This document shows, piece after piece, positions 57,263 through 59,924 of a stretch of 64,000 nt of DNA (position 1 is the first letter of the stretch; every line of letters begins with the position of its first letter). The notes below the pieces were generated by a model. That model did not search any database and was not told the origin of the DNA. It saw only the letters and a program-made list of their open reading frames with translations. The stretch covers positions 1 through 64,000 of the forward strand of contig NZ_JOCB01000027.1 of NCBI RefSeq assembly GCF_000718775.1, written 5' to 3'. The position numbers and the translations under genes were made by a program. This DNA comes from Streptomyces sp. NRRL S-31. Lineage in GTDB: Bacteria > Actinomycetota > Actinomycetes > Streptomycetales > Streptomycetaceae.

Positions 57263-58669
57263 ATGTCGGTAGGCGAAGAGGTCCGCACGGATCAGGGCAA
57301 GCCGCAGCAGTCCCTCGGGACGGCGGCAGCGCGGAACCTGGCCACCACCACCAAGTCCGTTCCGCAGATGCAGGAGATCAGCTCCCGCTGGCTGCTGCGC
57401 ACTCTTCCCTGGGTCGACCTCCAGGGCGGCACGTACCGGGTGAACCGGCGGCTGACGTACGCCGTCGGCGACGGTCGCATCACCTTCGTGAAGACCGGGG
57501 ACCAGGTGGAGGTCGTCCCGGCGGAACTGGGCGAGTTGCCGGCCCTGCGGTCGTACGAGGACGAGGAGGTGCTGACGGAGCTGGCCCGGCGCTGCCGCCA
57601 GCGCGACTTCGCACCCGGTGAGGTGATCGCCGACTTCGGCAACCGGACCAACGAGGTCTACCTGCTCGCCCACGGCCGGGTGGAGAAGGTCGGCACGGGT
57701 CCCTACGGCGACGACGCCGTCCTCGGGGTACTCGCCGACGGCGCCTACTTCGGTGACCAGGCGCTGCTCGATTCGGAGGCGATCTGGGAGTACACCGTCC
57801 GCGCGGACACCGCGACCACGGTGCTGGTCCTCGACCGCCAGGACTTCGAGCAGATCAGCGAGCGCTCCGACTCGCTGCGCGCACACCTGAGGCAGCTGCG
57901 CGCGATCCCCGAGCAGCGGACCAACAAGTACGGCGAGAAGGCGGTCGAGCTGGCGGCCGGCCACTCCGGCGAGCCCGACATCCCGCACACCTTCGTGGAC
58001 TACGAGCCGCGGCCCCGCGAGTACGAACTGAGCATCGCGCAGACCGTGCTGCGCATCCACTCGCGCGTGGCCGACCTCTACAACCAGCCGATGAACCAGA
58101 CCGAGCAGCAGCTGCGGCTCACGGTCGAGGCGCTGAAGGAGCGCCAGGAGCACGAGCTGATCAACAACCCGGAGTTCGGCCTGCTCAGCAACTGTGAGTA
58201 CGACCAGCGGATCCAGCCGCACGACGGGGTGCCGAGCCCGGACGACCTGGACGAGCTGCTCAGCCGCCGCCGGGGCACCAAGCTGCTCCTGGCCCACCCG
58301 CGCGCGATCGCGGCGATCGGCCGCGAGCTGAACAAGCGGGGACTGGTCCCGGAGACCATCGACATCGCCGGCAACCGCATCCCGACCTGGCGCGGAGTGC
58401 CCATCTACCCGTGCAACAAGATCCCGATCACCGAGGCGCGTACGACGTCCGTCATCGCCATGCGTACCGGCGAGTCCGAGCAGGGCGTCATCGGCCTGCG
58501 GCAGTCCGGCATCCCGGACGAGATCGAGCCGAGCCTGTCCGTGCGGTTCATGGGCATCAACGAACAGGCCATCATCAAGTACCTGGTGACGGCGTACTAC
58601 TCGGCCGCCGTCCTGGTGCCCGACGCGCTCGGTGTGCTGGAGAACGTCGAGATCGGCCGGTGGCGGTGA
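57263..58669 (+). CDS. eshA: Family 2B encapsulin shell protein EshA with cyclic-nucleotide-binding domain
   Basis: A 468-residue HK97-fold nanocompartment shell protein. The N-terminal arm and start of the fold (1-90, [30 protein letters not shown] cut here) are followed by an inserted cNMP-binding domain at about 95-205 ([31 protein letters not shown]). The rest of the shell fold follows, ending [39 protein letters not shown] precedes ATG 57263. EshA affects aerial growth and antibiotic production in Streptomyces. The next gene, a polyprenyl synthase, is the expected cargo of this encapsulin type. Confidence 0.93.
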
Positions 58670-58781
58670 CGTCTCCGCACGTCGTGACCGTGTCCCCGGC
58701 CGTCGGGGAGGGTAGGCCCTCGGGGTACGTGTCCGGTCGGGCCGGTGATGCCGGTCCGGGCGGACCTGGCGAGGGGGAGGC

Positions 58782-59924
58782 ATGGCCGAGTTCATGACGG
58801 AGACCGACGAGCGCTCTTCCGTTGCGCCGCTTTCCGGCACGGCGGGGGCGCGGGAGACGAACGGCGACGCCACCGCCGGTCCGCTCGACGGGCAGGAGGC
58901 GGTGGCACTGCTGGAGCGCACCCGGGCCCTTGTCGACCCGGAGCTGCGCGCGGCCGTGGAGTCGCTGCCCGGCTCCATGCGCCGGATCGGGCTGTACCAC
59001 TTCGGCTGGCAGCACGCCGACGGCACACCGGCGGCGGGCAACGCGGGCAAGGCGATCCGGCCGGCACTCGTGCTGGCGGCGGCCGCGGCCCTCGGCGGTC
59101 CGGCGGCCCGGGCGGCGGCGGTCCGGGCCGCGGCGGCGGTCGAACTGGTCCACAACTTCACGCTGTTGCACGACGACGTGATGGACCGGGACACCACCCG
59201 CCGGCACCGGCCGACGGCCTGGACCGTGTTCGGGGACACCGACGCGATCCTCGCCGGAGACGCCCTCCAGGCGCTGGCCCTGCGGCTGCTCGCCGAGGAT
59301 CCGCACCCGGCTTCGGTCCCGGCCGCGGCGCGGCTCGCGGCCTGCGTCGTGGAGCTGTGCGAGGGCCAGCACGCGGACACCGACCTGGAGCAGCGCGCAC
59401 CGGACGCGGTGACGCTGGACGAGGTGCTCGCCATGGCCGAGGCCAAGACCGGGGCGCTGCTGGGCTGCGCCTGCGCGCTCGGCGGGCTGTACGCGGGGGC
59501 CGGCGCGGAGGAGGTGGCCGCGCTGGACGGCTTCGGCCGGCAGGCCGGGCTCGCCTTCCAGCTGATCGACGACGTCATCGGCATATGGGGGGACCCGCGG
59601 CGCACCGGGAAGCCGGCCGGCGCGGATCTCGCGGCCCGCAAGAAGTCCCTGCCGGTGGTGGCGGCGCTCACCTCCGGCGCGCCGGCGGCGTCCGAACTCG
59701 CCGCGCTGTACGGCAGGCCGTACCTCCAGCAGGAGGCGGAGGCCGGGGAGATCGCGCGTACGGCGCTGGCGGTGGAGCGGGCCGGCGGCCGGGACTGGGC
59801 GCAGGCCGAGGCCGCCGACCGGATGGCCCGGGCCATGCAGGAACTGGCCCGCGCGGTCCCCGACCCGGAGGCGGCGGGCGGGCTGCTGGCCCTCGCCGAG
59901 TTCGTCACCCGGCGCTCCAGCTGA
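58782..59924 (+). CDS. Polyprenyl diphosphate synthase, probable encapsulin cargo
   Basis: A 380-residue trans-isoprenyl synthase. First Asp-rich motif DDVMD at 131-135 in NFTLLHDDVMDRDTTRR, second at 263 in LIDDVIGIWGDP (DDVIG, last Asp replaced by Gly, followed by GDP), and the KKS lysines at 287-289. The first 40 residues (Ser, Thr, Gly, Ala, Glu) are unlike a catalytic domain and look disordered, as expected for a cargo-targeting extension of family 2 encapsulins. It lies 112 bases after eshA, same strand. Product chain length is not predicted. Confidence 0.9.
   Translation: MAEFMTETDERSSVAPLSGTAGARETNGDATAGPLDGQEAVALLERTRALVDPELRAAVESLPGSMRRIGLYHFGWQHADGTPAAGNAGKAIRPALVLAAAAALGGPAARAAAVRAAAAVELVHNFTLLHDDVMDRDTTRRHRPTAWTVFGDTDAILAGDALQALALRLLAEDPHPASVPAAARLAACVVELCEGQHADTDLEQRAPDAVTLDEVLAMAEAKTGALLGCACALGGLYAGAGAEEVAALDGFGRQAGLAFQLIDDVIGIWGDPRRTGKPAGADLAARKKSLPVVAALTSGAPAASELAALYGRPYLQQEAEAGEIARTALAVERAGGRDWAQAEAADRMARAMQELARAVPDPEAAGGLLALAEFVTRRSS

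Follow-up and report, generated by a model that had tools for sequence, protein, structure and literature searches.

A probable EshB-type Family 2B encapsulin locus of Streptomyces sp. NRRL S-31: a shell gene linked to a putative polyprenyl synthase cargo whose N-terminal tail is not supported as a family-wide loading tag

Encapsulin shells of Family 2B carry an inserted domain and are often encoded next to terpenoid enzymes. Polyprenyl diphosphate synthases are the most frequent neighbours of 2B shells (Nichols 2021, PMC8049743), and Andreas and Giessen 2021 (PMC8346489) counted 900 polyprenyl-transferase operons, 888 of them in Actinobacteria, in which the enzyme was treated as a putative cargo. 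The same survey describes disordered synthase N-termini of 50-100 residues without a conserved motif capable of acting as a tag. The shell Sl-Enc2 measures 28 nm and is built of 60 subunits; like other 2B shells it carries its inserted domains above the two-fold pores (PMC12407261). In Streptomyces coelicolor two such genes are named, eshB (SCO5249) and its paralogue eshA (SCO7699), and the eshB promoter is up-regulated in development (PMC3878966); SCO5249 has also been named as a possible AtrA target (PMC13170358). In S. venezuelae eshA shares an operon with 2-methylisoborneol genes (PMC6428758). Here a locus of this kind is described from Streptomyces sp. NRRL S-31, in the first 64,000 nucleotides of contig NZ_JOCB01000027.1 (the window). 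It is probably an EshB-type 2B operon with an enclosed synthase, in which the synthase tail is not a family-wide tag and the shell does not sense cyclic nucleotides.

The shell protein scores 765.6 bits against NF041163 (encap_f2b; NCBIfam cut-off 400) and 354.9 bits against the 2A model NF041162, under the cut-off of 380 of that model. Pfam places cNMP_binding (PF00027) at residues 114-201 with 63.6 bits, preceding the SrpI-like domain PF19307 at 216-466. Together these matches bear out the initial annotation, which had described an HK97-type shell with a cyclic-nucleotide-binding domain at about residues 95-205, followed after 112 bases by a trans-polyprenyl synthase; both open reading frames (ORFs) were found in these places (Table 1). 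The synthase scores 488.8 bits (cut-off 450) against NF041169 (f2_encap_cargo4), which NCBI names "family 2 encapsulin nanocompartment cargo protein polyprenyl transferase". The sequence matches support a 2B shell with a putative polyprenyl-synthase cargo, a class already in print. A protein search returned 6303 proteins at E≤1e-60 among 7997 candidates scored, and most of the named entries among the 120 matches listed carry the NF041169-type cargo name, as judged by eye. Across the order, the synthase exceeds its cut-off in 177 of 245 genomes and the shell in 238.

Linkage of the two genes was followed in 191 candidate synthase loci (L003-L112, L153-L232 and the window). These include 80 later-fetched loci, taken by rank from the matches that had no locus so far, which are not all such matches. 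Three loci (L003, L058, L216) had no anchor match and were left out; 188 were parsed and 158 were kept at 97% identity. In 187 of the 188 the synthase is preceded by a shell gene in the same orientation; in the remaining one (L064) the match starts 19 bases from a contig end. By start picks, the gap between the genes is 112 bases in 47 of the 187 loci.

The shell had initially been labelled EshA. That name was rejected, EshA being the shell of the 2-methylisoborneol operon; EshB fits better both a split in identity by synthase linkage and the published gene pairing. Of 30 shell loci fetched, 13 have a synthase inside the 1.5 kb flank, and their shells share 76-92% identity with that of the window; the other 17 reach at most 67%. 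The split is not clean, as L003 and L021, which come from other genera, have synthase-linked shells with just 62% identity to the window's shell. The albaflavenone genes, the SigB/SigF-family sigma gene and the RsbW-like gene of the window are also found in the SCO52xx region of S. coelicolor. Given the identity split, the published eshA and eshB genes and these surroundings, the shell is most likely EshB-type, and the locus most likely a single-shell Family 2B operon of that type. The genome encodes one 2B shell over the cut-off and no second.

The disordered N-terminus ascribed to the first 40 synthase residues was placed correctly within a few residues. In an AlphaFold2 run on 33 aligned synthases (mean predicted local distance difference test score, pLDDT, 87.6), the only stretch of the window's synthase with pLDDT under 50 is residues 1-34, so its N-terminus is predicted to be disordered. 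The start used here is likely the true one, because the second Met, at 58794, which was considered as a start and rejected, is replaced by Arg, Gly, Leu or Val codons in 12 of 69 relatives. These relatives are the synthases, among the 158 non-redundant ones, that begin with a block resembling MAEFMTET; in 43 of them the first Met follows a Shine-Dalgarno-like GAGGG or GGGAG at a distance of 6 or 7 bases. Codons 2-6 of the block are near-invariant even at third positions (at place 2, for example, Ala occurs 41 times and is always encoded by GCC), and this looks like a constraint on translation initiation. Conservation of the block was rejected as evidence for a tag because of this third-position constancy and its presence in 69 of 158 synthases.

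Extension length is highly variable. By start picks it ranges from 0 to 202 residues in the 158 synthases, some of the short values being wrong picks. These picks give 42 synthases with fewer than 17 residues, of which at least four (L053, L069, L081, L159) were probably picked too late, since a strong site for the motif described below lies further upstream in open frame. As some starts are misplaced, a stricter count is preferred: 26 synthases have no start codon downstream of the shell stop that would allow a 20-residue extension, and the number falls to 25 when L064, cut by the contig end, is removed. Two tails are internally repetitive, that of L065 with RPGTAGE three times and that of L107 with DGR-type units many times.

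Alignment of the extensions across orthologues had been proposed as a check for a conserved loading motif. It revealed none shared by all 158 synthases and hence no conserved N-terminal tag; 25 lack room for 20 residues, and the one short motif is confined to some subclades, that of the window being outside them. This recurring stretch, resembling LERRSPIG, was seen by eye, and a profile was built from 14 eye-picked sites (loci L003-L112). Of 80 loci fetched as a held-out set, 70 were parsed, 58 had less than 95% identity to the training loci and 50 of these had at least 15 residues. Thirteen of the 191 loci were dropped in this run as they had no anchor match, and the scored region, which began at the first start-like codon, may include untranslated bases. 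P values were taken against residue shuffles and ignore kinship. The profile reached p<0.05 in 20 of the 50, and 13 had no equally good shuffle among 500. Over the 158 synthases, scored from the shell stop, it found 37 sites at p≤0.005 versus 0.8 expected; 32 score at least 12, and the 5 under 12 were set aside. On the tree the 37 sites require 17 parsimony changes versus 33.5 for shuffled labels, so they are clustered, yet in several subclades.

Other measures of the motif gave a mixed picture. The strict pattern [LPR]ER[RH]xPIG[TS] is matched by 8 of the 158 synthases. In 28 pairs of 8 representatives, less than 88% identical in the enzyme domain, the 9-residue site was compared with whichever other 9-mer pair from the nearby extension was most alike, resulting in 21 wins, 4 ties and 3 losses. 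The shorter pattern P[ILV][GA][TS] occurs in 16 of 116 extensions (2.5 expected) and [ILVPS]G[TS] in 42 (25.3 expected), while [ILV]G[TS] alone, at 17 (shuffle mean 8.8, best shuffle 18), is inside the shuffle range. A strong PIG[TS]-type site is absent from 126 of the 158 synthases, including that of the window and all 26 with short extensions. The analysis does not support the synthase tail as a general, family-wide tag.

The 147 synthase-linked shells over 440 residues were divided by start picks into 39 from short-extension and 108 from long-extension loci, with a few misplaced rows. Positions 365, 373 and 375, in a luminal loop, are among the 25 that differ most between these groups; as many other positions differ equally, the divergence of clades alone may account for this. 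No strong marker was found between the shells of motif-bearing and motif-less long-extension loci. The N-arm is near-invariant: 13 of the 15 residues 17-31 are conserved at 0.99-1.00 in the 147 shells (Gly19 0.95, Ala21 0.77; mean for residues 17-45, 0.97). It is largely kept in 17 other shells, in which places 19, 21 and 25 vary.

The terpene-cyclase cargos, which likewise are terpenoid enzymes with an N-terminal extension, offer a direct comparison. NF041167 is the 2-methylisoborneol-synthase-type cyclase cargo; no protein of the window's genome exceeds its cut-off. The sample consisted of the 30 best-scoring NF041167 loci, from a search in which 70 of 119 genomes were over the cut-off. A shell piece lies within 1.5 kb in 19 of the 30, and none was seen within that distance in 11. 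The pattern PxG[LIPV]GT is present in the N-terminal part of all 30 cyclases, and strict GPxGLGT in 28, but this motif is nearly absent from the synthases. As the same patterns were applied to both enzymes, a family-wide synthase tag as strong as the cyclase motif would have shown up.

The cyclase sequence GPTGLGTSAAR also resembles the shell N-arm SLGT[SA]AAR (shells among L124-L152; cyclases L130, L234, L242 and nine of L253-L282). LGT[SAT][AG]AR, matching the N-arm, is found in 9 of the 30 sampled cyclases, and the GLGT core in 29. In the article texts searched, figures apart, the cyclase motifs are printed in PMC8346489 alone and SLGTAAAR in none. A speculative and rather unlikely extension of this likeness is that the cyclase tag copies the N-arm and both use one shared site, and that EshB-type synthases left this code, retaining a loose PIG[TS]/PGT remnant or no tag. 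If true, tag-free loading would have taken over at least once in the synthase compartments. The likeness, should it hold in structures, would supply a loading mechanism.

The catalytic core of the synthase is intact: D131, D132, D135 and F126 of the first aspartate-rich region, and D263, D264 and G267 of the second, are identical in 33 of 33 aligned synthases. Type I geranylgeranyl diphosphate synthases have a DDxxD motif without insertion and an aromatic residue five positions before it. The window's synthase follows this rule with DDVMD and F126, and its product is most likely the C20 geranylgeranyl diphosphate. Behind the cargo family, the closest model with a name is NF045549 (geranylgeranyl diphosphate synthase IdsB equivalog), at 356 bits, under its cut-off of 475. 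The pair is not the sole source of prenyl diphosphates, since the genome contains six polyprenyl-synthase matches.

A second, sesquiterpene locus in the window had been annotated, and it is present as an albaflavenone-type pair, with an epi-isozizaene synthase (722.1 bits; cut-off 675) and an albaflavenone monooxygenase (829.3 bits; cut-off 700). The further suggestion that this locus could use related precursors found no support: the pair lies about 20 kb from the shell and synthase, and no epi-isozizaene synthase homologue (E≤1e-8) occurs in any of 66 loci with full 10 kb flanks, where terpene cyclases in general were not searched. A sesquiterpene locus requires C15, so a C20 product would not feed it. 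Elsewhere in the genome, contig C30 encodes at 75961-78063 a two-domain geosmin-synthase-like protein, which scores 1142 bits for a cargo model whose cut-off is 1200.

By analogy with relatives, the shell would be a compartment of about 28 nm formed by 60 subunits, and the inserted domains would lie on its outer face above the two-fold pores. Enclosed in it, the synthase would during development make an isoprenoid diphosphate of short to medium length, with geranylgeranyl diphosphate as the most likely product. Loading, if any, would depend on a weakly conserved, lineage-specific tail signal or on another surface of the synthase, and the inserted domain would act without sensing cyclic nucleotides. 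On this last point the initial annotation had proposed a ligand gate on the shell, and a sensor that opens or closes it would agree with the Pfam name of the domain, its PF00027 score and its sequence matches to cGMP kinases and cyclic-nucleotide channels. In an alignment with a cGMP-kinase repeat that is weak though free of gaps, however, the phosphate-binding Arg falls on Ile174, and the cassette has no such Arg: positions 172-177 contain Arg or Lys in none of the 147 synthase-linked shells (2 of 17 others). Trp175 is invariant in all 147 and all 17, and Glu is at 176 in 140 of the 147. A preprint cited in PMC12407261 reported that a 2B inserted domain bound no cyclic nucleotide. Loss of the Arg agrees with that report and argues for another role or ligand, so cyclic-nucleotide gating of the shell is very unlikely and the sensor is the most improbable of the explanations considered. 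With an invariant Trp175 next to where the phosphate contact was lost, the search for a ligand of the inserted domain becomes narrower.

Enclosure of the synthase is likely by association. Several observations weigh against the overall reading: placement of the synthase inside the shell is drawn from that association; PxG[LIPV]GT is found in just 1 of the 158 synthases and strict GPxGLGT in 0; the 25 synthases mentioned above have no room for a tail of 20 residues; shells from short-extension loci are about as conserved as the others (N-arm 0.97 and 0.97, HK97 part 0.91 and 0.93 for the two groups); and the length of the product is deduced from a single position and a family name. A literature search, with preprints and most subscription papers outside its scope, found no paper that tests whether a synthase is loaded into a 2B shell. 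Alternatively, the enzyme might not be enclosed, the two genes sharing a transcript and a developmental isoprenoid programme while the true cargo of the shell is another protein or none. The lack of a family-wide tag, next to a motif in every sampled cyclase, and the missing extensions would fit this. Near-universal linkage to the shell, the recurring 112-base gap and the published treatment of the class as putative cargo and as the 2B neighbourhood (PMC8346489, PMC8049743) speak against it, and it is considered unlikely. Somewhat less doubtful, though still below even chances, is that the extension is a real tag that evolves fast and tolerates change. Its core would be a hydrophobic residue or Pro followed by Gly and Thr/Ser, taking the form [LPR]ER[RH]xPIG[TS] in several subclades and VPxPGTAGE in that of the window. 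The held-out scores, the excess of sites and their clustering on the tree, the wins of the 9-residue site and the enrichment of P[ILV][GA][TS] all favour such a tag. However, most synthases, the window's and all short ones among them, have no strong site, the strict string is rare, 17 changes are equally compatible with repeated loss under weak selection, and the shared core was picked after viewing the data, with [ILV]G[TS] alone no commoner than shuffles allow. An enclosed synthase without a family-wide tag remains the preferred explanation.

Together, shell and synthase make up a unit of two genes whose chromosomal surroundings are conserved. All 66 named loci with complete 10 kb flanks have antiporter, deaminase-like and RsbW-like genes upstream; a SigB/SigF-family sigma gene is kept in 65 and an amidase in 55, and the sigma and RsbW-like genes lie 4-6 kb upstream. 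Downstream genes are kept in 48-54 of the 66, and a zinc-finger-like ORF in 13. Further along, two genes that by inspection, rather than a family search, resemble those for a nickel superoxide dismutase (HCDLPCG hook) and its maturation peptidase are kept in 52 and 49 loci. A block upstream of the shell shows long runs of at least 80-95% identity in 56 relatives; it contains GGGTAA, which resembles a SigB-type -10 box. No promoter came up in a sigma-70 scan. On the minus strand, facing the first part of the shell gene, lies a match to RF02735 (Sernc350, a Saccharopolyspora antisense RNA) of 141.3 bits (gathering 50), which may simply reflect conservation of the coding strand.

Table 1. Features of the window discussed in the text
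Feature	Position	Strand	Details
Albaflavenone-type pair, epi-isozizaene synthase and P450	34974-37555		four-base overlap
SigB/SigF-family sigma gene and RsbW-like gene	51445-53099		
Conserved upstream block	57130-57168		around GATCCATTCCCGCTCTTTCGGGTAATG
Family 2B encapsulin shell gene, most likely EshB type	57263-58669	+	468 amino acids; ORF list, NF041163
RF02735 match	57302-57801	-	opposite shell gene
Shell N-arm, near-invariant	57311-57355	+	residues 17-31; alignment of 147 synthase-linked shells
Inserted cyclic-nucleotide-binding-like domain	57545-57877	+	about residues 95-205; PF00027 at 114-201
Invariant Trp175 beside place of canonical phosphate-binding Arg (Ile174 here)	57785-57787	+	cGMP-kinase alignment
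Spacer, shell stop to synthase start	58670-58781	+	112 bases; GAGGG six bases before synthase start
Polyprenyl synthase gene, putative cargo, type I geranylgeranyl-diphosphate-synthase-like	58782-59924	+	380 amino acids; NF041169, PF00348
N-terminal extension of synthase	58782-58892	+	37 residues before first helix; pLDDT under 50 at 1-34, helices from 38
Clade-specific patch SSVAPLSGTAGAR	58815-58853	+	RSPxVPxPGTAGE in many close relatives; seen by eye, window's subclade
First aspartate-rich motif DDVMD	59172-59186	+	D131, D132, D135; Phe126 five residues before
Second aspartate-rich motif DDVIG	59568-59582	+	D263, D264; Gly in fifth place (G267)
Nickel superoxide dismutase-like and maturation-peptidase-like genes (presumed)	62464-63439		

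The locus is a member of a class already in print, which comprises about 900 operons, and the part worth following is the comparison of cyclase and synthase cargos. To the published picture it adds that 25 of 158 synthases have next to no extension and that a short motif exists in some subclades. As lineages with and without an extension have about equally conserved shells, loading could be compared in natural variants, and entry of the synthase into 2B shells becomes directly testable.

Among described systems the operon type of PMC8346489 is the closest: it shares the inserted-domain shell and the synthase with a disordered N-terminus, and no structural difference from the window was found. 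EshB (SCO5249) of S. coelicolor is likewise a cyclic-nucleotide-binding-like protein and a paralogue of EshA (PMC3878966). Its match to the window is presumed from linkage and synteny. For the enzyme, the solved relative 3nf2 has DDLLG as its second motif where the window's synthase has DDVIG. The window's shell matches the S. griseus 2B shell 9bhu over residues 14-467 with 657 bits, and the same fold is expected. Further solved relatives are 9bix and 9bje: 9bix, from the two-component shells of S. lydicus, carries the Sl-Enc2 loop printed in PMC12407261, and 9bje is presumably also an S. lydicus two-component shell. The S. lydicus operon, as described in that paper, is of the xylulose-kinase type with two shells, whereas in the window a single shell accompanies a synthase.

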